A program made the translations under genes and the position numbers. From Lutjanus erythropterus (Eukaryota; Chordata; Actinopteri; Lutjaniformes; Lutjanidae), in the NCBI GenBank assembly GCA_020091685.1, contig CM034603.1, positions 31,047,696-31,111,695 on the forward strand: 64,000 nucleotides of DNA, given 5' to 3'. How positions within the stretch are numbered: the first letter of the stretch is position 1; each line of letters starts with the position of its first letter. This document shows positions 23,724 to 64,000 of the stretch, piece by piece. Below the pieces are notes generated by a model that saw nothing but the letters and a program-made list of their open reading frames with translations, had not been told where the DNA came from and ran no database searches.

Positions 23724-24300
23724 ATGGGAAGAAAAACACAGTTAAAGATGCTGAAACTTTTGCTTTTAGTGGCCTTCACAGAGGTAAGATAAGCATTTTA
23801 TCATCGTACACTGATTTTCTTTTAAACATTTCCACAATAATACACAACAAAGAGCTTCTGCTTACAATAGCTGGCATGTTTCCCTGTCTTTGATATAATG
23901 CATATCTTATATATTCAGATAAATTATAGCAGTGCATAGAAGGAGGACTTTTGAAATACATGAACACAGGCTCTTTTGAGTGTCACTGCTTTCAACAAGT
24001 GCGTGTGGCATGCCCAACCTTAGCTCAATAGACAAATTCATTCCGACCTGAAAGAAATACCTGCACTGACCACTCCTGAAATCTGTGTTGAGTGAAGGTA
24101 ATGTGCAGCCTGCTGCCTCTCATGCTCCGAGAATATGATACAGGGCGTAATTTGCCCCAGGATATAATGTGAAATACCACCGGCTTGCTTCTCCTGGAAT
24201 GATGCCCTTGTCTGGAAAATACTGCATCGAGTTATTTCTTTGTTTCATTCATTAACACTGTCATTATTTTGTCTTTTTCAGATTTGTGCTGCACAAAATG
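23724..24300 (+). CDS. fndc7: fndc7 signal-peptide exons
   Basis: The ATG at 23724 begins a 60-nt phase-0 exon with a short basic start and the hydrophobic core LKLLLLVAF; a 19-nt micro-exon at 24282-24300 adds ICAAQN. The same two-exon plan (54 + 22 nt) opens the neighbouring fndc7-like gene, which supports both starts. An in-frame downstream Met (KMLKLL) is an alternative start that would also give a signal peptide. Confidence 0.82.
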
Positions 24301-42395: not shown

Positions 42396-45300
42396 ATGGA
42401 TCAGATGAGGACTCTTTATTTATCAGTCATAATATTGTCTGTCATACAGGTAATTATACTTTTTTTAAATTTAGTTTCTTTTTTCTTTAATTTCATAATG
42501 TAATTATGTTCTAACAGTTTCTAATTAATTAAGTTATTTTGTCTTTTTTTTTTTAGATACAGCATGTTTTGGCGACAGGTGAGTGTTTGTGTTCTTCATG
42601 TGACAGAAAACATTTTTTAGCAACTTCTAGATGCTTAAATTTGACTTTTTTTTTTCTTTTTTGTCCATCACAGATGTGGTAAGATATATTAGACTGTTAT
42701 GTTTTTCAGCCAAATACTGGCACTTTAACATAACATATTGCTTAACTGTGGACATAAAACTGCAGCTATGAACCAAATTGACAAGTTAAATAAAAAAAAG
42801 CGAATAAAGACAATCAAAAGCAGCCGCTTGTAGTTAATTGTTTTGGCAATTAATGACTTCCAATTAAAAGTGAAGTAAATGATTCTGGATAAGATAGTTG
42901 ATTGCTGAGTCTCATGGTTTTGTTGAGTGGTTTGGTCCGAGCTACTTACTCAAAGAATTTGATGACCTGACCGTGATCGTCAGCAATCAACTATCTGTCT
43001 ATCTATTATAGATTGACTGATTAGATTAATTGAAAATGATAATAGCTGCTGAGGAGGTCTCAACCACCAGAGGGCCACCGCCTCACGAATAAAAGACATC
43101 CTTCATCAGTCACTGCAGTTTCTTTCTTTCTCTCTCTCTTTCTTTCTTTCTTAAACATAACAACACACAATTCTCGAAGTTACTGAAATTAGTCTTTGGA
43201 GTTATGTTTGTGGGCAATGGGACATTTTGAGCCCAGAAAAAGATCTTTTCCAGTGCGTAAATTATATTCATGCATATAAAGTGCAATTTGAGCCAATAAA
43301 ACAAAACAAAGAACAACAATTTTCAAATATAATCATGTTTGTGTTATAAAACAGAATTTAACTCAAAATGTTAAATGGTGTGCTCATAATATTATCCTGG
43401 CATTTTAATGAATTTTAATGAAAAGTACACGATTCAATATTTATCACAATATTACAAAAACAAAGACAAATGATGGCTTCAAATCATGTCCTTTAGTAAA
43501 TAATATATCAGCACTTTTTTAAAAATTGTTTTGCTTCTGCTTTTCTTCTTTAATGAGATAAAATTACGGCCGTGACTTTTTGGCAATGACTGTTTGAATT
43601 ATGTTGGTACAATTATGGAACAAAAACAAAGCAGCAGTCAGTAGCAGTTCTTTTATGAAATAATAAATAATAAAATAAAAAAATAAAAATAAAAATAAAA
43701 AAATAATAAAATAAACCTTGCCTAAAAATGTAAACATAAGCTTGTTTCATCTGATTTCAAAGAGACTCTAGCTGTTTCCGACTGTTTCCAACTGTTTTTT
43801 AACCGCTTAAAAATTTGCTTTAACCTTATTTAACCTTTTAAAGCTCAAAAAGTATGAAAATAATAATCCTGAATGGATCTTTTTCCTTTTCAGTGGCATT
43901 AAGTTGTAAATTTATATTGAAGTTATGATACTGCCTGGCACTTCTGCATTATTTTTAATCTTCTGTGGTCTTACTTTCATGATCTGAGAGAATTTTATAC
44001 AGTTCTTTTGCTTTAAAACTTGGATTATTTTTAATATTCCATACAGAAACCATCAAGCTGTGTTGTAAATACTTGTTTCTCATGTCTTGTCTTCAAATGC
44101 CTTGTTTTATCTCTTTGCAGGATGTAATATTGTGTCAGTGACGTCTCCTACAGCATCAACACTGAAAGTGGTCTGGAGCAGCCACAGTGGAGCTTCAGCT
44201 TATTTACTGGACTTGAGGGTTGTGAACTCGACCAGTATCGCCCCTGTGGTGGTGATGCAGTCAGCACCCAGCACACAGAGGCTGATTCAGGGCTTAAGAC
44301 CTGGACACGTCTATCAAGTCACACTGAAGGTCTTTCACTTCTTCAATGTCTTGTGCACAGATGTTGAAATAGCGATGACAGGTAAAGACACTACTGATAA
44401 AAGTAACCAGTTAAATAAATCAGGAGAATCTCTGAATGCTGAATGCTTTATCTTGCATCCCCACAGTGCCTGCCACATCTCAGATCACTTTTTCCAAAGC
44501 TATATCGAGTACATCGATAAGGTTTGAGTGGTCCAGCGTGATAGGGGCGGACAGCTACATCTTGTTTGTGGAGAAGCTGTTTGGTTCTCCCGCCGAAAGA
44601 TACAACCAGACCTTCACAACCCTGAGTGGACAAGTGGACGGCCTGACTCCCGCCACAACCTACAACTGTTTCGTTTACTCCTCCAACAGTGCAGGAAGAG
44701 GCACCAAAAGTAGCACAAAGACAATCATGACATGTAAGTGCACATAAGATGCTGATTTAGTTGGGGGTTTTTTATGCAGAGGGTGTCATTTCTGTAATGC
44801 AGGATATATGAAATGAATGCATTAGATTAACACCTGTATTTTCTCTTGGAAGTGGTGCAGCCACCAACTGGCGTGGCGCTTGTAAAGACAGGAAAGAGCA
44901 CAGCCCGCGTGACGTGGAACTCTGTGAATAAAGTCCTGCTTTATCAAGTGGCTGTGTGGGACAACGACACCAGCAATCCTCCGGTCATCAGAAACACTTC
45001 ATCCACATCCATGGATATCAGTAATCTGGAGCCCTGCTCCACCTACATAGTCGGAGTATCATCAGTCAACGTCTTCTTGGTTCCTGGGGAGGCGTCTAAT
45101 GTCTCACACACCACATCCAGTGAGTATGCATTGCCTTATCCATTACTTTGTCCTGATTGAGTCGCATCAGATTTAATCGGCAGTGGTGGTTGTTTAACTC
45201 CCATGATGCCATGCTAACAAATATGTAGAAAAGTGTTAAAGTTGGTTATTGTTCTCGAAAAAGAGAGATGCCTGGCAGGATAAACTGGAAGATAATCCAG

Positions 45301-48300
45301 GCTAAATCATTTTAAATTCTTTGGCAGGCCTTTGGAAATTTTTCCTGCTTATTTTTTGGGGTGCCTTCCTGTTGATTCTGGTAATTTGTCCTCTTTGTCA
45401 CAATCTGAGCGTTATGAACGTGATCAAATGTGACAATGATGAGTGTTTTATGACATGTGGGCTGTGTATGAACAAATATAAAGCTGGTCCATTTGTTTAA
45501 AAGTCATCTACAGACAAAGAAATGTACAGTATGTAATCTTAGTGACATTAGGTATGTGGGTTGATGTTACTGTGGCTAGCTAGCAAAGGTCAGCTCACGG
45601 CTAACAAACGAAAAGACTGGTTATGATTATAAAAGTGTTTTATTGCAGCTATTGAATGGTAGAAGTAAAGAAATGTCCAACATATCCTTTGTTTGAACTA
45701 CTTACTGGAGGTCAGCCACCAAGTTGACTGTCAATTTCCCGCATCAAACTATTGTGAAGCAAACTTTTGAAACTAATAGCTACAATATGTAACATTTCTG
45801 CTTTAAAATGTCTAAAAATGCTAATTTTGTTGAGTTGTCTACTTACATTATCCTAATATTTCCAGTTCAAACGCAGAGAAATCTGTAATTTATGCAAAGT
45901 AATGTTGGATTTTTTGCTAGCTGTTGCTAGCTAGTTGCAATAACTTGTGAAGAGGGAAGTCAGCACACATGACTAAGAATAATGTGAATAAAACTTGAAT
46001 ATATTCTCATGGATGAACAGGATTTCTACCTGCGTCATGTCAGATTTATAATATTTTCATCAGCTATGGTGTTTTAAAAGTGAAAACAACTTCCATGATC
46101 CTGTGCGGCTTCATGATGTCATCAACTATGACTTTTGTTATTTTTTTAATGTCAGAGACCCCAAGGAGCAGGTTTTAGTTTCTATAATCAGTGCAAGTGC
46201 TTTCATTGCTTATTAGCAATATTATTGAAATTTCATAGTTGTGTTTCCAGTGATATTTATTTTCTAACCCTTTTCCCTCAGCGATAAACCCTGTGACGAC
46301 CATTTCCGTGGACTACAGCTGCTCCAGCAGCATGGTGACAGTAACTTGGGATTTGGTTTTCGGCGCCAACATGTACAGGGCCACGGCAGTCGATGGCACC
46401 GGCGAGTCCCGTAACTGCACATCAGCTTCCACCAGCTGCCAGATCACCATGCTCAAATGTGGCGAGAAGTACCTGGTTCACGTCACAGCCATCTCTGACG
46501 ACTGTGAGAGCACCTCCAACGCCTCCACCTTGTTCGAGACAGGTGAGTGCAGCACCTGCACCTGTGGAAACGTGGCCTGTGTTTGTCTGCTATTACCTTT
46601 TTTAATTCTTGTATCGTCTCCATCTTCCCCTGTGCCTCATCACCTGTCTGGACATGTTTCCCATATGTGTGCACACACCTTCTCATTTTACTACTATACG
46701 TTCCCTGAGCTCTTTATCTCAAACTGTCCCCATAAGTCTGTCCTGTGGGACGCTGATGAGGTTCCTCCCATGGTGTCCTATACACTTTTCTCATGCCGAG
46801 CGGCGCAACACACCCTCTCATTAGCCACCGAGACCTGCCATCCAACACCAGTCAATCTAAAGCTCTTTACAGTCTATTGAAGTCAGGGAGTTATCTCAAA
46901 GGTCAGCTATGGTATCAGTCTGGAAAGTGAAAAGGAGACACACACACACACAAATGCAACCCGCCCAGGGAAATAATCTAATGTCTAGCACACACACCTG
47001 TTTACTCCAAAGAAGTTGTGAATGCAACAAAGAGTTAAATTACAAAAGGAGTCAAATCTCAGGTTCCTTAGATGATATTTGTGAACTTTCAAACAATAGA
47101 AGGTGAATTTCTAGCCTGAGAATTTGCTGCAAATACTTTTTAAGGAGTGATGGTGTAAAATGCAGAAAGAATTTACAATTAAAATGTTAAAAAAAAATGA
47201 ACCATCATTATCAACAAGAGGAACAGGAGCTTTGTTTTGTCACAGATGTACACCTATTATAAGAATATGCAGTGTAAAAGGGGCTTTACGCTGGTCAGAG
47301 AACGCCCACTTACATCTGGCATTTGTTTTCAATGGGAAAGGGTACAATCAGCACTCACTCCCAGGTCACATGACTCTGCAGTAGTCACAGGTATCTTTCA
47401 GCTCCAATAGAGACGTAGAGACGTGAGTTGTTTTTGACAATGGCACCTCCGTCAGTAACTACTGCTGTTTCTTTTGCTTTTTTTGACTCGGTGCTCGTCT
47501 TTGGTCTAGCAGCTGTAAAATGGTGGGTAAAATGTTATTTCCCATGAAATCTTCACAGTAAAAGTCTCCTGTTGTTTTGTTATCTAAAAGCTTTTATTAT
47601 GAAACAGCAAAATCAGGAAATGTTGGGTTTTCATCAGCAGTAACATAACTCTTACCCAGCTGAAACTAAACTTTGAACCACAGAGATTCAGTTAGAAGCT
47701 ACAAAAGTACTGAGAGCTGAACACAGAGACACTTTTAAAAACTTCTTTCTCACTGCTCTGCAGCATGACATGAGTCTCAGCTTCTTTTCTCCACATTGAG
47801 TCAGACTGGGGACATATTCCTTGCCATCCTTTGCTTTCATTCCCTCACCATTATCTGTGCTTTAATGTCTAATCCTCTGCCTCATTCCCGCAGTCCCCTG
47901 TGCTCCAGCTAATCCTCAAACCCTCCACCAGTGCTCCAGCAACGTGATCGTCTTCAGCTGGGAGCCCACCAACAACACCTTCTACTATGTGGCAACGGCT
48001 GTGGACAACACCGGCAAAAAGACTGAGTGCAGGACGCCAGACAACACGTGTTACTTCACCAACACGGGCTGCGGGCAGTTCTACACGTACAACGTGTACG
48101 CCGTCAGCTCTGGATGTAACAGCGAAGTCAGCCGATCTGAGTTTGTCCGGACTTGTGAGTAGGACTTGATTTGTTAAGAAATTAGGATTTTAATACATAT
48201 TTTGGTGATATTCTACAGTTTTCAAAACCAACAATGAACTGATCCTCCTACCCAATATAATAAGTAATGCCATTAAAAATTCAATAATGATCCACACCGT

Positions 48301-51300
48301 CACAGAAATACTGTGAAACTTTCTCAATATATTGACTTACTATTTCAAAGTAATGAGAAACTTTCTTGAAATAATGGCTTACAATTTCAAAATAATGAGA
48401 ATATTTCTCAAAATAATGACAGTATCTCAAAATAATAGCTTAGTATATCAAAATAATGACTTATTATTAGAAAGGTTCACTTTATTTTGAGATCCTTTTT
48501 CATTATGATGACTTAAAGGATCTTTTTTACCAATCTCATTGGCAGAAATGTGCTTCCATTAATAGTAGTGCGATGCACAAAATGTTTTATCTCTGACTGA
48601 CTGACTTGAATTAATAACTGATGACAGCCATAAAATGATAAAACCTGATGTGCATTATCACTGATATATTAAATATGACTAATTTGATGTGGCGTATTTC
48701 CAGTATCTACTTGAGGAAAAGAGAAAAGACGAGAGAAAAAGTTTATTTTCTTTTGCGTCCTCCAGCTCCTTGTCTACCTACAAATGTGAAGACAGCAGCT
48801 CAGTGTCACTCTGACATGTTGATCACCACCTGGGACTCCGCTGCTGGAGCGCTCTCCTACACTGTGGAAGCACAGGGGAACACCGGAGAAACCTACAACT
48901 GCACCTCCTCCTCCAACAGCTGTGCGGTGACAGGGGTCCCCTGTGGCGAGCACCTCAGCGTGTGGATCGTCGCCTCCAATGACAACTGCAGCACTAACAA
49001 GGTGCTGGGAGAAGCTGCTCAAACTGGTAAGTACTGGGATCTCTGGAAGACACATGATGAAAGATATGATACCAGTGATGCTCTGTTATTCTGACTTTTT
49101 AATATTAATTGATCTTATTTGCAAACTTTCCATCCCTCCCTCCAGTTCCCTGCACCCCCACCAATGTCTCGGCGTCAGTCGACTGCAGCCAGGATTCTGC
49201 GAGAGTAAACTGGACATCGAGCATCGGTGCCATATTCTACGTTGCCATTGCACAGGACACAAACGGAAACACACACAGCTGCAATTCAATGGGCACCAAC
49301 TGCTTGCTTGAAGGCCTGAGATGTGGACAGAATTACACTGCCAGCGTTATTGGCAGCAATCTGAAATGCAACAGCAGCAACAGCCATGAGGTCTCCTTCA
49401 GGACGGGTAGGCCAGAGGGTTGGATTACAACAAGATTTTCTTCTGGCAGAATATATTTTCATTAGTGTAAAATCACCTGGAGATAAGAATCATAAGTCCT
49501 CTTCCACAGAGTCTGCCGCCATGTTTCTAAAGTAGCAAAGAAACAGACAAACTGGCTCTAGATTGGACCTTTCATGGTTTTTGCGCATCTCACACTTTGA
49601 AAGCGAGGATGAGGCGAGCTGGTTGCAGTCTGCAAACTCACAGCTGCTGTAATTGACCAATAATAATAGAAATATCAGCTGTAATAATATCCGATTTGAC
49701 AGATCATGTCAAAGCATTTGATTTGAATTCTTAGGCAAAATGCTCTATAAGCGCCAAAGTATATTTGCAAAGTTTTTTTATGTACTTTACTAGAAAAAAT
49801 ATATGACCATTTGAAGAGTCAGAGCTGTTCTTTTTTTGTTGTTTAGGTCAAAGCTGTGGAATATTAAATCTATTATACATAACATTTCTGCATTTACATG
49901 TCCAAAAACGCTAGACATCTTATATATTTTGTTGAGTTGTGTTCTTACATTATCCCAAACGTTTCCAACAATCTTCAAATGCAAAGAAATAAGTAATTTA
50001 ATTAAGGTAATATTATGTTTCCTGCCAGCAGTTGCTAGCTAGTTGCTATAACTTCTGGGAAAACATGAGATACCCTGGATACATCAGAAAAGTCAAGAAG
50101 GAAGTCTGCAAATGTGACTAAATGTAGCGTGAATAAAACTTTAATATTAGCTCATCATGTCATGTCCGATACATTTTCATCAGCTACTGTGTAAAAGTGA
50201 AGATGACAGCTCCCATAATCCCTAGCAACTTCCTGATATCATCAAACTACAGCTTTTGTTAATGTGATAGAGACCCCTAGTGGGTTTAAAGAGTTTAAAT
50301 CATCAATCTTTGCTCACTATATCTTAACCTTTCTTATCCTCAGGTGTCCATAAATTACAGGGTATATGAACTTCTTTTTTTAAATACAAAAATATGAAAT
50401 TATCAGTTATCTTATCAGCTGCTGCCATAAGAAATGGTTATTGGTACCAGCAGGAAAAAATCTGATTTGTGCGAACTTCAAATTCTGGCTATTAATCTAC
50501 TGTACCTCCTTTGAAAATGTCAGATCCACTGCACATCTAATCAACTGAATCCTCTGTCTTTCCATCAGCTCCTTGTCCTCCAACCAACATTGAGGCCTAC
50601 AGAGACTGTGACGCCAACCATGCTCTGATAGTCTGGCAGAACCATCAGCCCACAGGCCTCTACACAGCAACCATAAAGGATCAGACCGGGGCTCAGCTCA
50701 CCTGCACCAGCAACACCTTAAATAACTGTAAAATCACCTCTCTGCCCTGTGGCAGAAGATACAACGTCACTGTCAGCTACAACGATGGAAACTGTGCGTC
50801 CACCTCAGCACCTGCCAGCATGGACTCAGGTAGTGAAAGAAAAATGCAGAACAGTTTGTCATTGGAAACATCCTCAATATTACAAATGACTCATGATGCC
50901 TCCTGTTATAGTGCCGTGCGGTCCTGAAAATGTGTCAGCCAGTGTGGCGTGTGCCACCGGTGAGCTGACGGTGAGCTGGAACATCTCGGTTCCTGCAGAG
51001 AACTACACCACCATCGTCTCCAGAGGAATGGGTCAGCCTCTGCACTGTAACTCCACAGAGACGCAATGCACCACGGGGGGCTTGCTGTGTGGAAACTCCT
51101 ACGTGGTGGTCGTCTTCTCCGTCACTGGGACGTGCTTCAGTCTGCCGAGCTCAGAGGTCACAGTGCAAGCATGTAAGAAACGCAGGCTGATTGTCATTCA
51201 CCATGTTCCCATTGTCACACAGAGAGTGACGTCAGAGGAAAATGGCTGCTGTGTGAATTTGTTGAATTAAGGATGCAGCCACAGCACTGGGACTTCCTCG

Positions 51301-54300
51301 AATGCAGTCTCAAACTTCCTAATTTTTATCTCCCTGTAGTACCATGTCCTCCCACAAACGTCACAGCTGCACGCACATGTCCTCCGGCTCCCGTTCCTGT
51401 GTCATGGATCGCTAGTGACAGCGCCAAATACTACACTGCTGTGGCCGTGAGCGGCAGAGGTCACAGGTCAGAGTGCACGACCAATGCAACGTCCTGCAGC
51501 CTCCCTGGACTCCGGTGTGGGGAGGTTTACACCATCGGTGTTTCAGGAGCTGATGACAACTGTACAGGTCAACTGAGTGACACTGTCTCTTTGAACACAG
51601 GTAACACAACACAATAACATGGAGCTTAGTTGGGAGATTTTTCATAAAAAATACTTAAAGGGATAGTTTGGATTTTTTAAAGCAGGGTTTGATGGTCAGT
51701 GTATTACCTGCATTAGATGGCGATTGGCATCTACTGCAGGAGGATAAGTAATTTACTACTATGGACAGGGTCAACACCTTAAAAAGGCCAACCTAGAAGA
51801 AAACATCATCAGCTTAATTTTGCACTATATTTAGAATATTTTCACCACCTTCCTTTGCTGTCAGACATCATTTTCCAACAGGAAACAGCTGTTATATAAG
51901 CCAAATATCACTCTCTCCAAACCAACCAAACTCCATAGGAAAAATCTGTAATTTTACCTCACTGAACACGGAAATTGCTGGTCTACCGCTGCCTCAATCT
52001 GTTAGCTTTTTTGTGCTATATTATGTGACTTTGGTGAAACCGAACTAACCCCTCAAAACACTGAAGCCACACATGAGCACAAACAAACTAACCAACCAAG
52101 GCCACGATAAACCAGCACCTCCTGTGTTCTGTGAGGTAAAATCACCGTTTTTGTGACAGGAGTCTGGTGCCTCTGGAGAGAACAATATTTGGCTTATATT
52201 ATGCTAGTTTCTTGTCAGAAAAAGCTGTCTAATGACAAGGTAAAGTTGTGACAATATTAATTATATGCCCATAATGAACTGACTTGGTACTTTGCCGGTA
52301 CAACAGCTGCATTGCCAATGAATAATAGGTTAGAAAATAAAACATTTGTCCAATTTAACATGACTTCTTCTCTACATATACAGAAACACAGACAGATATA
52401 GTACATATACCGAGACAGTTTTGTTGGCTAAGCAGATACAGATACAAAAAAGACATCTCTTTACACCTGCAGTAGGTAATACACTGACTATGGATAAGTA
52501 CTTTATACAATCTCACTGAAAAAATCCTAACAATCCCTTTAAATTGAAGTGTTTTAACTCTTATTTAACAATCATTCATAGAGACTTCATTAACAGTGGT
52601 TGATGTTTAACTTGTGTCCCTCTCCAGCACCATGTCCCCCCATTAATGTGTCCAGTCAGCTGATGTGTAGCACTGGCTCTGCTCATGTGTCCTGGGCGCC
52701 CAGCGTGAACGCAGTCAGCTATACTATGACAGCTACCAGCCTGAACCAGACCACCACCTGCACCAGCAGCAACACCACCTGCACGCTGACTGACCTGGTC
52801 TGCGGCCAGGCGTACGACATCCTGGTGTCTGCCGGTGATGGCACCTGTATCAGCAACCACAGCGCCCCCTACAGACAAGACGAAGGTACTGAGAGAGAGG
52901 TCGGACATCTTCTGCGACTGACAATCACTCTAATGAGAAGCAGATTGATATTTTAATCCAAGCTGGTTCAAATAAATACTTAAAAAGCTGCAAACTGATT
53001 TTCAAAACAGTGGTTTGCACAGCTGCGTATCAACAGGAATAAAGAAAAAGAACAAAAGTAAAAACAAGCTATATCCCATTTGACTCCAGGAAGTCACCCC
53101 CTGTGCCCCAGTGCATATCACCAAGATATCACGCTATTACTGTAATAAATACCATGACAGAGAAATACCTTCTTGACTGTCTCCCATAATGCTCTTTCTC
53201 TGTTAGTACCGTGTGCTCCACTGAACGTCACCACCAGCCTGTTATGTGGCACCAACGACTTGACGGTCAGCTGGATCCCCTCTGCTGTGCCTCTCAACTA
53301 CAGTGTCACCGCCGCGCCGCTGGCTGCAAACATTAGTTCAGTCACCTGCGACACTCGCCATGCCAACTGCACCCTGAGTGGTCTCCAGTGTGGACAGACG
53401 TATAATGTCTCTGTCAAAGCTTCCTCTGGCAGCTGCAGTGGACCATACAGCCACCCACAGACCGTTCAGACGGGTAATAAAGATGTTGATGATGATTTTA
53501 GTTTGCAGTACATTTCAGTAGTAATATGTCCTTATTTACCTCTAAGAAACTGTAATAAGGGTGTCATAGAGGGTCTAATACTGTCTAATAAAGAACCAAT
53601 TTCTTAGTGCACTGAAAAATAAAGTGAAACCTTTCCATGAGCTGTATTTTGTTACTCAGATTTATCTCATGCACTGTGTTGTCTTCTTGCAGCGCCCTGC
53701 TCCCCTCAGAGTCTAACAGCAGTCACAGACTGTGGGTCAGACTCTCTCCAGGCCTCCTGGAACGCCGCTCCTGGTGCTACTTCCTACACAGCGATGGTGA
53801 CGGGCCCCAACGGCTTCTCTGAAACCTGCTCCTCACCGGGCCTCACATGCTCTGTCTCCGGCCTGCAGTGTGCCAGTCAGTACACCGTCACAGTGACGTC
53901 AGAGGACGGCCGCTGCACCAGCTCACCCAGTCAAACTGTTAAGACCACAGGTAGTGTACATTTTATGTAAATCAAAAGCATTTTATTTTTTTGAACGCAT
54001 CATGTGACATGATTCTCTCTACCTCTTCCACCAGGACCATGTGACCCTGTCAACGTGACCAGCGTCCTTCAGTGTGGTTCAGATAGAGCCACAGTGTCCT
54101 GGCAGGCTGCTGCCGGGGCCGTGGCCTACACCGTGCTCGCCGAAGAGGAAAACTCTCAGCATCGTACGTCCTGTAGGAGCACTACAACGTCCTGTCAGCT
54201 GAACCAGCTGCAGTGTGGAAAAGTTTACAACCTGACCGTGACGGCTGAGGATGCCACCTGCAACAGCACTGGAAACATCAGCACAACCCTGATGACAGGT

Positions 54301-57300
54301 AGGAGAGAGGGAAACCGGACAGACTTAAGCTTAAAGGGATGGTTTGGATTATTTGAAGTGGGGCTCTATGAGGCTTTTATCCAAAGTCAGTGAATTAATT
54401 GGCTGTCCTTCTCTCCAAATCCAGCAGACTCCATCACAAAAAAACAGTAATTTTGCCATGCAGAACATGGAAGTTGCTGTTCTACATTCAGTGTTTTAAA
54501 GGGCTAGTTCGGATTCACCAAAGTCCCACATTAACACCAACAAGTTTACTAATGGAGGCAGTGGTAGTCCAACAACTCCCATGTTCTCTGAGGTAAAATA
54601 ACTGATTTTACCAGTTGGGGGAGAGAGAGCAATATTTGGCTTCGATAACAGCAGTTTTCCATCAGAAAAGGCTGTCTGATGGCAAGGTAAAGCGTCGAAA
54701 GAAATTCTAAAGACAGTGTGCACTGATCTATACAACCCCACTTCAAAAACTTCAAACTACCCCTTTAACTTAAAAGTGCAAAGAGAAAATAGATTTTCAT
54801 GTCTTTAAAAACACATTTACCTGTAACACCTCTGACTTTTCTCCCTGTCATTTCTCCCTCTCAGCTCCTTGCTCTCCCTCAATCCAGAACAGCACCCTGA
54901 TCTGTGGCACCAATTCTTCGTCTCTGTCGTGGACGCCGATGGCCGACGCCACAGGTTACATAGTTAATGCAACAGCTACAAATGGGCACACGGTTTCCTG
55001 CAGCTCGGCCGCTGCCACGTGCACCCTGACAGACCTCATGTGTAGTGAAACCTACATGGCCACCGTCACTGCACGGGGGAACCAGTGTGACAGTGCACCG
55101 AGCTCCAGAACCAACATTACCACAGGTGAGTGTCAGCATGTAAGCATGTGTGATATGAGAGCCATAAAAAGAAATTTTTGTTGGTTCCATGTGATAAACC
55201 TATGTCTATGTTCTGCTCCTTCTGTGTTCTCTTTCAGCCCCGTGTTCTCCAACTATCTCATCTAAGCAATTTACATGTGGCACCAACACAGCAGTGTTCA
55301 GTTGGACGGACCCTGCGGGAAGCCTCGGGTTCACGGCTCAGGTGGCAGGAGAAGGCTATCTGGTTAAGTGCCAGACTGTAAATACCAGCTGTCCGTTCCA
55401 AAGTCTTCCTTGTGGCTTGGATTTAAATGTAACAGTCGTGGCTGAAGGGGCGCAGTGCAACAGCCTCCCAAGTGTCAGTGAATCTCTTGAAACAGGTAAT
55501 CCTTTCTGCAATGTACTGTCATAAAAATGCCCCAAAAAAGACCAAATGATCTAACAGATTGTTACAGAGATACTGGAAAAAGATGGTTTTAATATTAGCC
55601 TTGATTTACTGTTCTTTGTGCAACTTCAAATGTCCGAATTTGGAGGTTGTTCTGTCTCTGTCTGCACATTTTGAATTGATTCATGGCATATTTAAAAAAA
55701 AAACCAACAACTATTACTCCGTTAGCTTAGCTTTGCATAAAAACTGGAAATGGGGGGAAAACAGTTGGCCTGGCTCTGTCCAAAGGTGACAAAATCCACC
55801 TACCAGCACCCCAAAACTCACCGATTAGCATTAGCGCTAGTTATGTCGTCCAGCATGAACCACCTCATAAAACCACAAATTTCATCTTTGGTTTTTGTAT
55901 GTACAAACAATCAAGATATAACGTTTTAATTAGTGAGCTCGGTGGTTTTGTTATCTTTGTACAGAGCCAGGTTAGCTGTTCTCCACTGCTTCCAGTCTTT
56001 GCGCTAAGCTTTTCCAACTTCATATTTAGTGTACAGACACGAGAATCATATCAATCAATGTCATCTAACTCTGGCAAGAAAGCAAATTACTGTGTTTCTT
56101 AAAATGCAAATGCAATGCAAAAACAGTATAATTTCCACATTAAAATCCTTAGAAATGAAACTACTTCTACTACCTCATCAAGAAATGTCAAAATCTATGA
56201 ACATGCAAGTTTTGTTTATGTCTAAAGTTTTCCTGCTGGACACAAGAAGTCGCCTACTTCACTATACAGTCAGTTCTCTGTGTACATGCACTGGAAACCC
56301 CAAGTTTCTACATCAGACCTGTCACACCTGTCAAATCATGCTCATATTAAAGTCAGATTTTCAGTGAGCACAGAGAAACCAGACTTTCAGGAGATGAATG
56401 TGAAAACAGCCTTCAAGTGTCAAACTCTTCTGCACAGCGAAGCTCAAACATTCAACTTTCAGAGCGAGAGGAAAAACATTTTTGAAGCGAGGGGGACTTT
56501 AAATGTTGAAGCTCACTAAATATCAATTGATGCTGTATGTTAATAACTTATTCATGACCCTGTCTTTTTTTTTCCTTTTTCTGTTCTGCAGTCCCGTGTG
56601 CCCCGCAGAATGTTAGTGCCACTCTGGTCTGTCTCAATGATTCAGCCCTGGTCTCATGGGTGGGAAGCCCCAGTGCTACAGGGTACAATGTGACAGCCAC
56701 AGGCCTGGACGGACACACGCACCACTGCCAAACCAACACTACCAGCTGTCAGCTATCTGACATCCACTGCGGTGAAACCTACAGCATCACAGTCACACCG
56801 TACTCTGAGACATGTCCAGGACACCAGAGTGCAGTTTACAACTTTAGAGCAGGTGCAGAAAGACTTGAAGATGGACAAATGTTAGGACATTTCAGGGCAC
56901 AGAGACAACATTCAAACCTATTCTCCTCTTATTTTCAGGTCTTTGTGCTCCAAGAAATGTCACAGTGTCTCCAGCATGTGAGGACAGCATTGTCTCCTGG
57001 TCTAATGTAACAGGGGCTGAGATGTTCATAGCAACAGCAACTGCAGCTGATGGCCACACTCACACTTGCAGCTCAAATTATTCGAACTCATGCAATTTCA
57101 CTGACCTCCACTGCGGGGAAACGTATGCTGTTACTGTTGTGACGGTGGACAGGGGCTGCAGGAGCGAGCCGAGCTCCGCCGTGCAGCTGAGGACAGGTGA
57201 GAGGAAACTGGAATGAGGAGATTTTCAGTCTTTAAGACTGAGTTGCACCAACAAGGATTATGTTTAAGTATGTTGCATCCATCAGATTAAATTGAATTCT

Positions 57301-60300
57301 GTTGCACCAAAATTTTAAACTGTGATCCAGTATTAAGTTTAACCTTAAACTTGCCATCAGCCAGCAAATCCAAACATTTTGTTAAGGAATATAAAACATT
57401 TTTGGATACTTACAAGCTCCCAACAGCAGTTTTTTAATTGGTCTCCATATTGATAAAACTCTTGGTAATTTCAGTTTTCATCGCTAAACTTGGATTTACT
57501 AAACAGATTCATTTTGAATTGTGCAACAGAGCTGTCTAAACTCTAAACTCTGATTAGAACTAATCCCAGTCTAAGGGGATTTAATCAAAAGAATATTGAA
57601 ACATAGATGTAAAAATTATACAGAGAGTCACTTTTCTTTTCCATTTCTCTAGCTTTGTGTCCAGCTACTAACTTGACGGGCCAAGTCAGCTGTGGTACCA
57701 ACACACTGACCCTCACGTGGGACCAGAGTCCGGTGTCCGGGGCCACCTACACTTTACAAACTGAGATGATGGGCGGCTCACTCCCTCCTTCAGTGCTCAC
57801 CACCTCTAACACCTCACACACGCTGACCAACCTGCTGTGTGGACAGAGATATGCTTTCCGCATCGCAGCGCAGGATGGACACTGCCGCAGCAGCTACAGC
57901 CCGGCCATAGAAATAAGCACAGGTTGTGTTTCCATGGCAACAGGTTAACAGTTTTACCTGCTGCAGTAGAAAAAAAAAATCATAATCTAAAATCAGTTTT
58001 CCTCCTCTTCCTTCAGCCCCTTGTCAGCCAACCAACCTCACCGCCCGTGTGGACTGTGGGACGAACAGAGGGAATTTCTCCTGGGCCGAGGCGGGTGGCG
58101 CAGCTTTCTACACTGTCGAGGTGACAGGAGAGCACGGCCACGTAGCATCCTGCTCCTCCAATGACACCTCCTGCGCTGTAAAACTACACTGCGGCCGGTC
58201 ATACTCTGCTTCACTGGTGGCTTCCACTGAAAGCTGCAACAGCAGCAAACATGCCGACATTCATTTTGACTCTGGTAAGATTTAAGGACAGGCTGAACAT
58301 ACAGCTACAGAACAATCATCACAGACAACCTTCTTTTACTTGTTACATATTTTTATTGCTTCCAAACCCAAAGTAGATAACCACATTATATTAAACAAAC
58401 AAGATCCCCTGCACATAAAAATAATTACTTTAATTAAGTTTAGTTTAGATGCACAATAAAGATATAAAATATACAACCAATAAAAAAGGGCAGTAGCTGC
58501 AGTGCAAGAGAGGAAAGAAGCCTTAAAAGATTATTCTTATCCAGCCCCTATAAAAATAACATTGCTCAGTAAAATGAACACAACAAAGCAAACAACAAAC
58601 AAATAATAAAGAATAATTAACACAAACTTCCTGTGTACTCAAGACACGCGAACAAAAGAAAAGAAAGAAAACAATGAAACAAACCCAGAATAAACAGATG
58701 TGTGTAACCAACAGAGGTGTCTTACCTTAAGGCTCAAGGTGAAATGAGGAATTTCTTTAACTTCTAAGTTAGATTTTTTAAAAACTGGTGCCTTGATGTA
58801 CGACAAATGCAGTTACGGTAAAAACGTTTTTTATGCCTAGTTGTATAAGAGTGAAACATTTCTAATGATAATGATAATAATGAAATACACATGTAACTAA
58901 AGTAAAAATGAGGAAAAATAAAATAGGATTTATGATGAACACACTGATCACCAGACATTCGTATCATATCATATCGTGTCGTGTCGTGTCGTATCGTATC
59001 GTATAGTATCATATCGTATCGTATCGTATCGTATCGTGTCGTATTGTATCGTATAGTATCGTATCGTATCGTACCTTATACCGCTTGACTGTTGAGTCTT
59101 TTGAGGGATCTCAGTCCATGGAGAGCACTTTGCAAAAATATAATTCCATCTGTAACCTGTGATCAAACTCCGTCCCGCAGCTCCCTGTCTCCCAGAAGAT
59201 GTCGTAGCCGAGCTCCAGTGCAACACCAATTTGATGAATGTAAACTGGACACAGACCCCCGGCTCAGACAGCTACACCGCCTGGGCCATCAGCACCGACG
59301 GACACAGAGCCTCCTGCAACTCAACGTCCAGCTCCTGCTACATTCATGATCTGCTGTGTGGAAAGGTCTACGAGGTGGCCGTCACCTCCTCCTCTGTTCA
59401 CTGCAAAATCATAGCTGGCTCTGACTACAAGGTTCAGTCTGGTCAGTGCAGCTCTTTTGTGTACAAAACATAAACATAAACATAAAATCACTGAAACGAA
59501 AAATTATGTCTGCTGAAGGGTACATTATTTGATTGTAATTGAAAGTTCGCTCCTCTTTCACCTTCCTCTAGCTCCCTGTAAACCTGAGAACACCTCCGTC
59601 GAGCAGAACTGTAGCAGCAACGTCATGACAGTGAAGTGGAGCCAGAGCAGCACAACACAGAACTACACCGTCAAAGCCACGTCTGCTTCAGGTGTTAACT
59701 CCACCTGCGACTCCACTGAGAGCAGCTGCTCCTTCCTGGACCTGAGCTGTGGTCAACTCTACACTTTCACTGTGACGGGACACACGAATGTGTGCAGGAG
59801 TGAGATGAGCACCCCTGTAGAGAAGCTCACCGGTACACTGAATAACTTTTTACTTTGGCAACCATTTCTCAAAGGAGAAGTTCAACATTTTTGGAAATTC
59901 TTGGCAGGTGTTAACTGACAGGATTGATACCGCTTTCATATGTCTGTGCCTTAAATATGAAGCTACCGCTAGCATGATGGCTGAAAACTAGCAACCAGCA
60001 GAGATGTTAGGAAGTTACTGCACCCAGCTAATTCATATAAGTTTAATAGTTCAGTTTTTGTATGGATTAACTAAACAAGATAGGTGAATTTGTGAACCAT
60101 TTTCCCATCTTTGTTTTAAGCTAAGCTAACCATATCATGGCTGTAGCTTGATAGTAATTGAAAATGGCATCAATCCTCTCTTATCGAACTCTCTATTTGC
60201 TTTCTTTGAGAGTTAGCTGAGAAGACTGTTTCCATTTACATGTCTGTGTGATAAATATGAAGCTGCCATTAGCTTAGCTTAGCATAATGACTGGAAACAG

Positions 60301-63300
60301 GGGGGAGTAATAGCAACTAGCAGAGATGTTAGAGGTTACTGCATACAGCCAAGTCATATCATTTTCACACTTAATTTTTATCAATTAAACAAACAATATA
60401 TAACATGTTAATTTGTGAGCTTTAGAGGAACAAGGCTAGCTGTTTCCCCTGTCTCCAGTCTTTGTGCTAAGCTGAGCTAACCTCATGTAGGATTCATATT
60501 TTAAATGAGAGTGGTATCAGTCGTTTCATCTAACTCTCAAAGAAAGCAAATAAGTGCATTTCCCAAAAAGTTTAACTATCCCTTTAACTCTAAACTATTT
60601 CCCATTTTCACTGATCTCCTCTTCTCATCTGCACCTCTCTCCTTTTCCAGCTCCATGTCCTCCCACCAATGTCTCAGCTAAAGTGAACTGCACTGCGCGT
60701 AATGCTCTGGTCAGCTGGAGTAGCGCAGCTGCTGCCACAGGCTACAGCGTCCTGGCAACCTCCACAAACGGACACAACTCCTCCTGCAGTGACATGGGCA
60801 CGTCCTGTAACCTCAACAACCTGCTCTGTGGACAGGAATACTCTGTTGTTGTGGAGGCGATGCATACTGGCTGTCCTGGTCCTGCAAGTGCTCCTGTTAC
60901 GTTCATTACAGGTATGACTATACCTCAGATCTCGTGGTATTGATGCTTTTTAACACAGCATCAAATCTCTGGTAGTCATATTAACCTGGTCAACACAGAG
61001 TGACGGTAATCATCCCTATTACTGGCAGAAAATCCAAAGTCTAATATATCAGTCCATTAATGAAACTGAAGTGCAAAACACTTGGATAATACTAAGGCCA
61101 GGACATATGAGGCAGAGACGAAGATGAGCTGACAAAGAAAGGAGGGAAAAACAGACTAAATACACAAAGAGGCTAATTAACTGATGAAACACAGGTGACA
61201 CAGAAAACAGGCGGGAGAGAAAAGGTGAAAAGGTCAAGCAGGGTTGCAGATCGAAAGAGTCCAAAGGCAAACAAAATCCAGAGGACCAGGCAGGAAATCC
61301 AAAGACCAAAAAACGAAATGAAGTCCCAAACACTCCAAAACACTGGGACGAGGCCATGAAGCTTGACGCAGAGACGAAGACAAACTGGCAAAGACATGAG
61401 GAAAACAAATACACTAAATGCACAGGCTAGTTATCAAATGAAACACAGATGACTGACAGCAAGCTGGAAAAAGGACAAAGACAGGAATTGAAGTAAGCAA
61501 AGATAAATGAGGAAAGACTCTTACAAAATAGAACAGGAAATAACTGAACTGAAACCTAACACCATAACAAAATTATGCCCCAGATCTTAGCCATAGTCTC
61601 ATCACAGCATTTTGGTTAAACAAAGCTGAACCTACAGTACTTTCCTCCCTCCAGAGCCCTGCACCCCCATGAATCTCTCGGTCCACTACAACGTGAGCGT
61701 TACCCAGGTGATGTGGGAGGCAGCAAGAGGTGCCAGAATTTACTCTGTCCAGGCTGTGACTGACCAGGGCTTGCCGATCACCTGCAACACCAACGACACC
61801 AGCTGCTACCTGGACGGCCTGCAGTGTAGTCAGATCTACAACATCACCGTGACGGCACGCAACCAGGCCTGTGACAGTGAGACCTCTGAGATCTATCGCC
61901 TCATGACAGGTTAGTGATAATTGAAGTGAAAATATTATGTATTGGTTTGACTTTTTTCAGTTTTTAAATGTGTTTTTTTTTCTTTTTATTCAGTACCCTG
62001 CCCACCTACCAACGTTCAAGCCAGTGTGGTGTGTGAAGAACTTAAAGCGACAGTCTCCTGGCAGCAGAGCGCCCTCGCCGTGGGTTATGTTGCCTACTTT
62101 GACAACCAGAATGGACACAGCACTTCCTGTGTTGGCGCAGACACAGATACCCAGTGTGTTGTCTCAGGACTGACATGTGGCACGGCGTACAACGTCTGGG
62201 TGAAGGCGCTGGGGCAGCAGTACAACAGCTCTGACAGCGCAGTGGTCTCTATTACATCAGGTAAAGACAAACAGCACTTAATACGTGTCACATACATCAA
62301 CAAAGTTTATTGTGAGGGAAATATGAGCAACTTTTGGGGGACTTTTGAAGTTTGTAGGTCTGAATGAGTCATATTCTTCTTAACCCCCACAGGTCCTTGC
62401 CCGGTGAGCAGCATCGAAGCCATGATGGACTGCGAGGCCGACTCCGCTACCGTATCCTGGCAGCCCAGCGTTGGAGCCGTGTCCTATGTTGCTGAGCTCA
62501 GAGCTTCGTCAGGCCACACGACCAGGTGCAACACCAGCCACACCAACTGTGAGCTGAGCCCCCTGCAGTGCGGAGAGGCATACAAAGTCGCCGTGACGGC
62601 TCTGGGAGATACTTGCAACAACACTGCTGAACTGGCAGAATACCTCATGACAGGTACAGTATGTTCACCTGTGTGTGTTTTTGTAGCTTGTCAGCCTTCG
62701 ACCAACCATTTTACAGCCTGTAGACAGCGAGAAGTAGAGCCAAGTCCAGATGAAATTTCAAGAGCACCTAGCTTCAGTAGAAAACATGATTGGATTTTGA
62801 TTTCAGACCACAAAAAAGTATTGTTAAATAAGTGCACAGTATAAAAGGCAATGTGATCTAAATGGTTTAAAAAGACATTTTTCATTTCATCTCAACTTTA
62901 TCGTAACTGCTTTGTCCCTCCAGAGCCGTGTGTCCCCACAAGTCTCGCCGTCAACTACAACGTGAGCACTGCTCAGGTGACGTGGGGAGCAGCAAGAGGT
63001 GCCATGTCTTACTCTGTCCAGGCTGTGACTGACCAGGGCCTGACGGTCATCTGTAACGCCACCAACAGCACCAACCCCAACTGCTTCCTGAACGGCCTGC
63101 AGTGCAGTCAGATCTACAACGTCACAGTGATGGCACACAACCAGGCCTGCAACAACACTGTGAATTCTGACCCCTACCGCCTCATGACAGGTTCGTCACC
63201 TGATCGGGAAGAAATGCATCAGTATTTCACTACACAGAGGTCTGACTATGTGTGCAGTATTGTTCTTCCCCGTTACTTAAATGTGTGTGTTTTCTTTCAT

Positions 63301-64000
63301 ACAGTACCCTGCCCACCCACCAACGTTCAAGCCAGTATGGTGTGTGAACAACTTACTTCAACAGTTTCCTGGCAGCAGAGCGACCTCGCTGTGGGTTACG
63401 TCGCCTACTTCAACAGCCAGAATGGCCACCATGCTTCTTGTGTCGGCACAGACGCAGACACCTTCTGTGTCGTCCCCGGACTGATGTGTGGCACAGTGTA
63501 CAGCGTCTGGGTCAAGGCCTTGGGACAGCAGTACAACAGCTCTGCCAGCACAGTGGTCTCCCTTACATCAGGTAAACACATACCGAGTAAAAATGTCAGG
63601 TTTTTTTATTTGGTTTTACTTTGATTTCAACATCTTTTTATTTGCAAAGAGTGAACAATAGCCAGCACCAATAAGTAAGCATACAACCAAAACCCAAAAC
63701 ACTGAGTTTCATCCCATTCCCATTTGTTTTTTGTGCTCATTCATAAATGTACTCATGTTCCGTCCTCAGCGCCTTGTCTGCCCAGAGAGCTTGAGGTGGA
63801 GGTTGACTGTAACTCTGACGGTGCTGCCGTCGTGTCCTGGAATTCCACTTATGGCACAGCTAACTTCTCCCTGACAGCCATCGTCAGTGGGTCTCTTCAG
63901 ACTCTGTGTGAAACGCAGCAGAACAGCTGTAATGTGACAGGTTTGAGCTGCGGGGAAACCTACAACCTCAGCCTCACCGCCAGCAACCAGCAATGCAGCC
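42396..64000 (+). CDS. Giant FNDC7-like protein, signal peptide plus 29 FN3 exons, 3' end beyond window
   Basis: Exons: 42396-42449, 42557-42578, 44121-44381, 44467-44733, 44853-45119, 46282-46542, 47894-48154, 48766-49026, 49146-49406, 50569-50829, 50912-51172, 51340-51600, 52628-52885, 53207-53473, 53693-53950, 54035-54298, 54865-55125, 55238-55495, 56592-56852, 56939-57196, 57653-57922, 58017-58274, 59181-59441, 59572-59832, 60651-60911, 61655-61909, 61994-62260, 62393-62653, 62924-63190, 63305-63571, 63770 to the edge. All FN3 exons are phase 1-1 and 255-270 nt (14 of 28 exactly 261), one domain each; all junctions keep frame. About 2547 aa lie in the window. The signal peptide is MDQMRTLYLSVIILSVI plus QIQHVLATG. 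Domains 1-3 are cysteine-poor like fndc7; from domain 5 each has six cysteines (PC.P, .C, C, C, L.CG..Y, C) and many N-glycosylation sequons. A secreted or surface mucosal/adhesion role is a guess. Zebrafish has fndc7-related genes of this kind. Confidence 0.88.
43571..43735. repeat. Interspersed repeat pair of 11738-11850 plus A/T-rich tail
   Basis: TTTTTGGCAATGACTGTTTG, then GTACAATT and GCAGCAGTCAGTAGCAG, match the aknad1 intron copy in order and strand. The following AATAAAATAAAAAAATAAAA tract is low complexity. Confidence 0.5.
44121..45119 (+). CDS. fndc7-like FN3 domains 1-3 (cysteine-poor block)
   Basis: Three exons (261, 267, 267 nt) encode ordinary FN3 folds: VVWSSHSGASAYLLDL, FEWSSVIGADSYILFV and VTWNSVNKVLLYQVAV are the B-C strands, and LRPGHVYQV, LTPATTYNC and LEPCSTYIV the tyrosine corners. 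At most two cysteines occur per domain. The equivalent position in fndc7 is also cysteine-poor, so this block appears ancestral to both genes. Confidence 0.85.
45775..46180. repeat. Intron block homologous to 49855-50290
   Basis: Shared words in order: TAACATTTCTGC, TTTTGTTGAGTTGT, TTACATTATCC, GCTAGCTAGTTGC, GTGAATAAAACTT, ATTTTCATCAGCTA and ACTTTTGTTA/GCTTTTGTTA. It lies between FN3 exons 3 and 4. This is either a dispersed repeat or a trace of duplication within the gene. Confidence 0.55.
46282..60911 (+). CDS. fndc7-like FN3 domains 4-23 (cysteine-rich array)
   Basis: Twenty consecutive one-exon domains follow the pattern PC.P.N, about ten residues, C, V.W, A..Y.A.A....G, C.....(S/T)C.L..L.CG..Y.V.V.A....C, and end in a Thr/Ser-Gly split by the exon junction. 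Domain 4 (46282) keeps the inner cysteines but lacks the opening PC, so it looks transitional. Strand-B Trp is present in nearly all; domain 16 (55238) has VFSW and domain 5 (47894) has VFSW. No stop or frameshift is seen in any of the twenty. Introns between neighbours range from 82 to 1163 bp. Confidence 0.87.
49518..49575. repeat. Dispersed repeat (CCATGTTTCTACAGTAGC family), copy 3
   Basis: CCATGTTTCTAAAGTAGC, then AACAGACAAACTGGCTCTAG, resembles the copies at 14328 and 21810. It lies in the intron after FN3 domain 7. Confidence 0.45.
49855..50290. repeat. Intron block homologous to 45775-46180
   Basis: This is the second member of the intron pair, between FN3 exons 7 and 8, in the same orientation. 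It is somewhat longer because of an insertion after GCTATAACTTCTGG. Confidence 0.55.
51656..52541. mobile_element. Inverted-repeat element in intron (TTAAAGGGATAGTTTGGATT ends), copy 1
   Basis: It begins TTAAAGGGATAGTTTGGATT and ends AACAATCCCTTTAA, inverted with respect to each other; near-terminal words (GTGTATTACCTGCA, then TGCAGTAGGTAATACAC) are also inverted. About 886 bp without a long open frame, in the intron after FN3 domain 10. It is related to the element at 54332-54767. Confidence 0.6.
54332..54767. mobile_element. Inverted-repeat element in intron, copy 2
   Basis: The left arm (TAAAGGGATGGTTTGGATTA, then TTTGAAGTGGGG) and right arm (CCCCACTTCAAAAACTTC, then AAACTACCCCTTTA) form terminal inverted repeats of about 30 bp. 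The shorter copy of the same type as 51656-52541 has an internal AAAGGGCTAGTTCGGATT that could mark a nested end. It sits after FN3 domain 14. Confidence 0.65.
55719..56101. repeat. Fish dispersed repeat (GTTAGCTTAGCTT.GCATAAA.ACTGG)
   Basis: The order TTAGCTTAGCTTTGCATAAA, AACTGGAAATGGGGG, GCCTGGCTCTGTCCAAAGGT and GCGCTAAGCTTTTCC to AAAGCAAATTACTGTG is a familiar dispersed fish sequence. Related copies lie at 59871-60590. It is in the intron after FN3 domain 16. Confidence 0.6.
58962..59073. repeat. Pentanucleotide (ATCGT)n minisatellite
   Basis: The run of about 110 bp is built of GTATC/GTGTC/ATATC pentamers in the intron before the FN3 exon at 59181. Single-base variants of the unit are clustered, not scattered. 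Confidence 0.92.
59871..60590. repeat. Two tandem copies of the GCTTAGCATAA dispersed repeat
   Basis: The block from CATATGTCTGTGCCTTAAAT through CAGAGATGTTAGGAAGTTAC is repeated about 300 bp later as CATGTCTGTGTGATAAATAT through CAGAGATGTTAGAGGTTACT. The right end (CATCTAACTCTCAAAGAAAGC) matches the end of the 55719-56101 copy. It fills most of the intron between FN3 domains 22 and 23. Confidence 0.6.
61100..61460. repeat. Direct repeat with about 260-bp period in intron
   Basis: GCAGAGACGAAGATGAGCTG (about 61112) and GCAGAGACGAAGACAAACTG (about 61368) open similar about 90-bp blocks that both contain ACACTAAAT/GACTAAAT and ATGAAACACAG. The strand is strongly A/G-biased, which explains the long antisense open frame at 61049-61423. 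Confidence 0.55.
61655..63571 (+). CDS. fndc7-like FN3 domains 24-28 with a duplicated exon pair
   Basis: Domains 24 (61655-61909) and 25 (61994-62260) are closely repeated as domains 27 (62924-63190) and 28 (63305-63571), with a different domain 26 (62393-62653) between. Domains 25 and 28 match at about 71 of 90 residues by hand count (both hold VSWQQS.LAVGYVAYF and VWVKALGQQYNSS). Domains 24 and 27 share AARGA, YSVQAVTDQGL, GLQCSQIYN and YRLMTG; 27 has four extra residues in the C-C loop. The short introns within both pairs (84 and 114 bp) share TTAAATGTGT. Confidence 0.88.
63770..64000 (+). CDS. fndc7-like FN3 domain 29, truncated by window edge
   Basis: The acceptor TTCCGTCCTCAG opens APCLPRELEVEVDCNSDG, then VVSWNSTYGTANFSL and LSCGETYNLSLTASNQQC before the window ends. 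Five of the six array cysteines and the start of the sixth region are visible, so the domain is canonical and the gene clearly continues to the right. Confidence 0.88.

Follow-up and report, generated by a model that had tools for sequence, protein, structure and literature searches.

A 64,000-nucleotide stretch of Lutjanus erythropterus DNA (the window; C13:31047696-31111695, where C13 is contig CM034603.1) ends within a long run of exons that each encode one FN3 domain. The run raises the question of whether these exons belong to a single gene, where that gene ends, and what a protein of such length might do. Proteins of the FNDC7 family have about nine domains. To complete the gene we extended the contig 70 kb rightward and 10 kb leftward, and we searched the genome (937.6 Mb) for relatives.

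A giant FN3 gene beside an FNDC7-like gene

Read exon by exon for acceptors and donors, the giant gene lies on the + strand and comprises 46 exons, from an ATG at 42396 to a TAG at 70928-70930. Exon 1 (42396..42449, 54 nt, ending in phase 0) holds the start codon and the signal peptide (MDQMRTLYLSVIILSVIQ), which a hydrophobicity scan identified as the most hydrophobic 19 residues of the protein. Exon 2 (42557..42578) is a 22-nt micro-exon running from phase 0 to phase 1, and it matches in place and kind the 19-nt micro-exons of the neighbouring gene and of the second giant copy, both described below. Three cysteine-poor N-terminal FN3 domains follow in exons 3-5 (44121..45119), and then 26 cysteine-type FN3 domains, one per phase 1-1 exon, in exons 6-31 (46282..64000, exon 31 ending at 64033, past the window edge). 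An earlier note on this DNA had placed the start codon at 42396 and counted 29 successive FN3 exons, all phase 1-1 and 255-270 nt with no broken frame, for about 2.5 thousand residues. Splice sites and phases read across the full model agree with all of this: the window contains 28 complete FN3 exons plus one cut by its edge, all on the + strand, and 2,547 codons.

The note had also held that the gene leaves the window, and extension rightward to the stop codon brings the count to 43 FN3 domains. Beyond the edge lie 14 more FN3 exons including the terminal one, and two of them measure 291 and 237 nt. Exons 32-44 (13 exons, to 70008, + strand) continue the array, exon 45 (70110-70160, + strand) is a 51-nt linker with the motif RRRR-D that codes VTQGRRRRDVSEQKQEN, and exon 46 (70659-70930, 272 nt, + strand) holds the 43rd and last FN3 domain and the TAG. 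All introns are GT-AG, exons 3-44 (42 FN3 exons) are all phase 1-1, the terminal TAG is the sole stop in the frame, and poly-A-type signals lie 3' of it at 71317 and 71418. The product has 3,801 residues and a mass of 399.6 kDa (~400 kDa) before glycosylation.

A profile built from the region's own FN3 domains gave 29 matches in 42396-64000, all on the + strand. Twenty dinucleotide shuffles gave 0 matches in 19 cases and 1 in the remaining one, so we reject chance FN3 matches as an explanation. The independent Pfam fn3 profile, in a scan that took in 28 of the 43 domains, identified 21 of 25 cysteine-type window domains at E <= 0.001 and also the three N-terminal domains, one of them below the cut-off. 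Other Pfam names in the scanned domains were Ig_RIMBP2 and Pur_ac_phosph_N (one member each), and in the N-terminal domains below-cut-off models of FN3-like domains. A genome-wide Pfam fn3 search, in which 150 of 1,201 candidates were scored, none from this locus, has no bearing on it.

Upstream of the giant gene and separate from it lies an FNDC7-like gene of ordinary size (23724..34492, + strand), with 13 coding exons, nine of them FN3 exons, its own signal exon and 19-nt micro-exon, and the end VISRGRRSVR-stop. Its nine FN3 domains were called by our own profile and by exon shape; Pfam, run on seven of the nine, listed fn3 for five, three of these above the cut-off. The giant gene and this ordinary FNDC7 type (the neighbour and its counterpart on contig C7) have several features in common: they share a locus, begin with a signal exon and a micro-exon, devote one phase 1-1 exon to each FN3 domain, and carry a basic R-G-[RK]-R motif close to the C-terminus. 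The giant also agrees with FNDC7 membership in that its FN3 domains stand in tandem in an apparently secreted chain, as seen from the Pfam fn3 matches and the signal-peptide exon. The two types differ in domain number, with nine FN3 domains in the ordinary genes against 43 and 54 in the giant copies, and in cysteine pattern. Further, the neighbour stops three residues past the basic motif, whereas the giant gene adds a linker and a further FN3 domain.

FN3 domains 1-4 of the giant gene have their best matches in FN3 1-4 of the neighbour, in order (phmmer 4e-6, 1e-4, 3e-3 and 3e-6); exons 3-5 account for the first three of these pairs, and the best match of the fourth domain is nearly tied with other domains. 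For the last domain of the giant gene, the closest domain in the neighbour is FN3 3 and not the final one. The in-order matches of the first four domains indicate that the giant is an FNDC7-type gene, which on this evidence arose by multiplication of the cysteine-bearing middle part. As judged from its sequence, it encodes an apparently secreted FN3 array of the FNDC7 kind that is far longer than the adjoining nine-domain gene. In both ordinary FNDC7-like genes the stop falls a few bases before a good donor (window 34461-34510 on C13), which suggests that an intron in the 3' UTR directly follows the basic RG[RK]RS motif. In the ordinary gene on C7, a later stretch could code for a hydrophobic tail in another frame.

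The flanking genes were examined for the identity of the locus. Human FNDC7 sits among PRPF38B, STXBP3, AKNAD1 and GPSM2 on 1p13.3. Downstream of the giant gene are PRP38 exons on the minus strand (window coordinates 76334-77717). There is a second PRP38 gene on C7, about 5 Mb from the copy there, and we therefore call the C13 gene PRP38 without assigning it to A or B. TPR-repeat exons to the left of the neighbour gene, with a GoLoco match under the cut-off, resemble GPSM2. Beside the C7 copy stand Sec1 exons of the kind seen in STXBP3, and none of 22 Sec1 matches falls on C13. ORFs of 387 and 155 residues at window 10412-13969, left of the neighbour gene, have no Pfam match. Synteny would presumably place AKNAD1 at this position, and its identification as the left neighbour is unsupported; the AKNA model matched nowhere, controls included, and is hence uninformative. 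FNDC7 and STXBP3 have been named as candidates in the human 1p13.3 region (PMC9582330).

A second copy of the locus on C7

Used as genome queries, a domain of the neighbour gene gave at least 61 matches and a domain of the giant gene at least 96, all those listed being at the C13 locus or at C7:35.63-35.69 Mb (E <= 1). Among these listed matches there were no dispersed family members elsewhere in this genome. C7 repeats the same gene pair, a nine-FN3 gene (a count that leaves out one weak partial FN3 match, E 0.03) and then a giant gene. The C7 giant has 59 exons and encodes 4,763 residues (507 kDa) with 54 FN3 domains, 109 sequons and 293 cysteines; it has one stop, at its end. Its signal exon is of a like kind, its micro-exon is 19 nt long, its last FN3 domain matches that of the C13 giant, and it has a linker exon with RRRR-D (GPGGARRRRDLRASQ...), again the only R-x-[KR]-R of the protein.

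Comparison of the two giants domain by domain identified reciprocal best matches for 36 of the 43 C13 domains, the other 7 best matches being non-reciprocal. Of the reciprocal pairs, 35 are in order, and the one out-of-order pair falls in a duplicated block. This conserved order indicates that the array already had about as many domains when the locus was duplicated, that is, that it was already giant by then. We infer that the event was the teleost genome duplication, from the shared neighbours and high dS and not from dating. End-to-end domain order, together with a sole signal exon and a sole terminal exon in each model, also supports the presence of a single intact gene.

Constraint and duplication within the array

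Across 41 of the 43 domain pairs (3,543 codons) we found pN 0.363, pS 0.665, dN 0.50 and dS 1.63, giving a dN/dS of ~0.30 that is approximate because dS is near saturation. Six of the 41 pairs (C13 exons 11, 13, 18, 29, 31 and 41) were placed by order and not as reciprocal best matches, and C13 exons 26 and 27 were left out because the domain alignment places them arbitrarily. Conservation in these pairs is higher for cysteines (210 of 214) and tryptophans (90% of 49) than for residues at large (mean identity 47%). When the two loci were compared by blastn, exons held 2,450 of the 2,934 aligned bases, although they make up 39% of the C13 stretch, and 8 of the 32 aligned pieces touch no exon. 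These data suggest that purifying selection has acted on both giant copies since the old locus duplication.

In-frame stops, which the earlier note had named as a sign of decay, are absent before the terminal TAG. Intact splice sites, a dN/dS of this order and the kept cysteines and domain order likewise lead us to reject a decayed array. Recent tandem amplification is also rejected as the origin of the array, with the exception of one two-exon block. Exons 26-27 (61655..62260, + strand) form a domain pair in which C2 is missing from the first and C6 from the second, so that a disulfide may join the two domains, and exons 29-30 (62924..63571, + strand) are the other copy of this block, with the same cysteine pattern. 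The two copies are identical at 68% and 79% of residues, with dS of 0.31 and 0.46 and dN/dS of 0.63 and 0.26.

Cysteine pattern and protein features

The giant C13 protein has 224 cysteines. We placed the standard cysteines C1-C6 by alignment to fibronectin FN3 domains and by the known FN3 topology, in which C1 lies before strand A, C2 in the A-B turn, C3 and C4 around strands C' and E, C5 in the E-F turn and C6 in the F-G loop. Across the 97 domains of both copies, C3 and C4 occur together in 79 and are both missing in 18, and neither was found singly. In exon 3 of either copy, C1 and C6 are the only standard cysteines left. Domains that have C5 but lack C2 are encoded, on a strict column reading, by C13 exons 26, 29 and 43 and C7 exons 36 and 56, to which exon 5 of both copies is added if a cysteine one column off is counted. 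The next domain has only one of C1 and C6 in 5 of 5 cases on the strict reading and in 7 of 7 with exon 5. Under random placement on C13 this arises at a frequency of 3e-5 with exon 5 (2.9e-4 without the recent duplicate) and of 6.8e-4 on the strict column without exon 5 (6.6e-3 without the duplicate); the pattern as a whole spans two related copies that are not independent.

The simplest reading, drawn from cysteine co-loss only, is that a typical domain carries the bonds C1-C6, C2-C5 and C3-C4, with a cross-joint bond where partners are missing. There are exceptions to this pairing. C13 exon 43 and C7 exon 56 have a lone C1 with no lone C5 before it, the preceding domain having an extra cysteine, and five C7 domains have a seventh, unpaired cysteine absent from C13. 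Under this scheme an unpaired cysteine would remain in exon 4 and another among the 13 in exons 42-44, as also in the C7 copy.

The C13 protein has 121 sequons, compared with 56 +/- 6.5 in 500 shuffles, and its Ser, Thr and sequon content is high. Between the two copies, 38 of 116 sequons are conserved against 33 of 111 other asparagines, which is no better, so glycan density rather than position may be what counts. R-x-[KR]-R occurs once only, as the furin-type RRRR-D in the linker exon before the last FN3 domain. No hydrophobic tail was found after that domain; next to the signal peptide, hydrophobicity is greatest (mean 1.61) in a stretch within one of the FN3 domains. The secreted, disulfide-rich, N-glycosylated array that the earlier note had proposed is supported to this extent, as a single, intact, apparently secreted, cysteine-rich and sequon-rich FN3 chain.

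A proposed function in apical gels

What might such a protein do? Our leading reading, held tentatively at somewhat less than an even chance, is that the one gene gives rise to a secreted, very long structural glycoprotein, a rod from epithelial support cells that helps to build an apical gel. The cysteines would form three bonds per typical domain, and a few joints would be locked by bonds between neighbouring domains. Since an FN3 domain is ~3.5 nm long, the whole array (43 x ~3.5 nm) would give a rod of about 0.15 micrometre, which could be both tough and heavily glycosylated. The last FN3 domain may be released by furin-type cleavage, and perhaps serves as a propeptide to delay assembly. 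The gel could be the cupula of the lateral line or ear, the otolithic membrane, or a related epithelial coat, and in it length and glycans would probably count more than any single binding motif. Two intact rods of 400-507 kDa would be some of the longest FN3 arrays known from the extracellular space.

What favours an apical gel, for instance the cupula, is that genes named fndc7 are expressed in support cells of mechanosensory organs. In a list of P1 cochlear supporting-cell genes, mouse Fndc7 takes 8th place, at 138-fold (PMC5137903). In the zebrafish lateral line both fndc7a and fndc7rs4 are found in support cells, the former as a label of these cells and the latter in a ring that takes in mantle, anterior-posterior and polar cells (PMC6363392). 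These papers concern fndc7, fndc7a and fndc7rs4, any one of which may be the counterpart of the giant gene. There is also a functional analogy with cupulin (ZPLD1), the main cupula protein, which is an N-glycoprotein with a C-terminal furin site secreted by supporting cells (PMC4219815, PMC13098472). It is not a family relation; the giant model has no ZP domain and consists of signal, micro, FN3 and linker exons only. Counting against our reading are the dominant cupula band of 45 kDa, the main text of both cupula papers, which has no mention of fibronectin (PMC4219815, PMC13098472), and the sequon positions, which are not specially kept. Cupula bands near 60 kDa were left unidentified in this work. 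On balance we favour sensory gels as the best single guess for an apical matrix rod, with a general epithelial coat as the main rival. If secretion by lateral-line or ear support cells holds, the giant proteins would be candidate fibre components of these poorly defined gels. The cysteine co-loss pattern offers a concrete prediction of how long FN3 arrays can be stiffened.

The rival coat would be a protein of the mucus or of the general epithelial barrier in skin, gill and gut, with no tie to sensory organs, a reading which we consider possible but clearly less probable. The high sequon, Ser and Thr content would suit it. A vibriosis study of tongue sole lists fndc7 as one of seven genes that combine a selective sweep with differential expression in gill or skin (PMC9592550), and fndc7 is raised in the swordtail ventral fin (PMC4338968). 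However, both papers leave the fndc7 gene unspecified, the gene model lacks a mucin-type repeat among its signal, micro, FN3 and single linker exons, and the strongest cell-type data indicate support cells (PMC6363392, PMC5137903). The earlier note's suggestion of a skin surface protein finds slight encouragement in that one tongue sole paper, with its unspecified fndc7 gene, while nothing in the literature searched favoured an egg surface protein. Its description of the protein as undescribed and of no known function holds for function in the literature searched, where the accessible text also yielded no description of a giant fish FNDC7-like protein; the family itself already has names (fndc7, fndc7a, fndc7rs4). 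Elsewhere, fndc7 is noted in pupfish at 48 hpf (PMC5450241), in tilapia embryos (PMC4176596) and in bream larvae under oil (PMC10864312).

A third reading, which we regard as improbable, is a soluble or matrix-bound signalling or adhesion scaffold of connective tissue, like tenascin-X or fibronectin, in which FN3 domains bind growth factors or receptors. FN3-bearing matrix proteins of such size do exist, as in tenascin-X at ~450 kDa (PMC10050494), and the PDB profile matches are led by fibronectin, titin, Dscam and tenascin-R. Yet in the 3 alignments examined out of 81 matches, the fibronectin and titin domains do not have the six-cysteine pattern. The C13 protein contains no RGD, KGD or LDV, and we reject RGD-based integrin adhesion for it; the C7 copy has a single RGD. 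The gene model, too, holds only signal, micro, FN3 and linker exons.

Tenascin-X and tenascin-W are likewise secreted FN3 arrays, and tenascin-W also grew by duplication of single-exon FN3 domains (PMC1578592). The tenascin family is described as having EGF repeats, heptads and a C-terminal fibrinogen domain (PMC10050494), whereas the giant model has no EGF, heptad or fibrinogen exon and its FN3 domains are of the six-cysteine type. Usherin (USH2A) is also a very long extracellular FN3 array, and one linked to sensory cells; it has a transmembrane tail. Laminin-type domains are described for it as well, whereas the giant model has no laminin-type exon, no hydrophobic tail was found, and the last exon ends shortly after its FN3 domain.

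Returning to the apical matrix rod, we can envisage a more specific and far more speculative form of it, to which we give little weight. Giant FNDC7-like proteins may form an apical matrix fibre class of their own, as rods whose 43-54 FN3 domains are closed by disulfides and in which a few joints are locked by conserved bonds between C5 of one domain and C1 or C6 of the next. Conserved unpaired cysteines near both ends would link the rods head to tail, and the furin-released last domain would trigger assembly in a cupula or otolithic gel.

Gene boundaries and minor features

That the exons belong to two or more genes, or that several shorter isoforms are real products, seems very unlikely: the uniform phase 1-1 of the internal FN3 exons means that any subset could be skipped in frame, and a signal-peptide-like ORF whose donor lies at 47440 was seen in one intron, but this candidate has no counterpart in the matching C7 intron, and each model has one signal-peptide exon and one terminal exon, with domain order kept from end to end between the copies. 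The ORF at 47440 was the single candidate inside the C13 array in a scan for other signal-peptide-like first exons; the scan gave three candidates inside the C7 array, with no counterparts in C13. It is a weak scan in that it found both C13 first exons but missed that of the C7 giant, and we consider the colinearity of the copies the stronger argument for one gene. No internal gene end common to both giant copies was seen.

Some smaller features of the two loci were also observed. The donors of both giant models are all GT except for one GC donor (CAG/GCAAGG) at C7:35649505, in exon 30 of the C7 copy. Two FN3 domains of the C7 giant are split by extra phase-0 introns at AAG/G (C7:35664829-35665899 and C7:35639908-35640590), which look like intron gains since they are absent from the matching C13 exons and from the other FN3 exons. 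Two rhodopsin-type GPCR ORFs lie just past the C7 giant gene. On C13, the intron after exon 22 contains a 5-bp tandem repeat of TCGTA (23 copies, 58959-59073) that yields long open 'RYDTI' readings on the minus strand.
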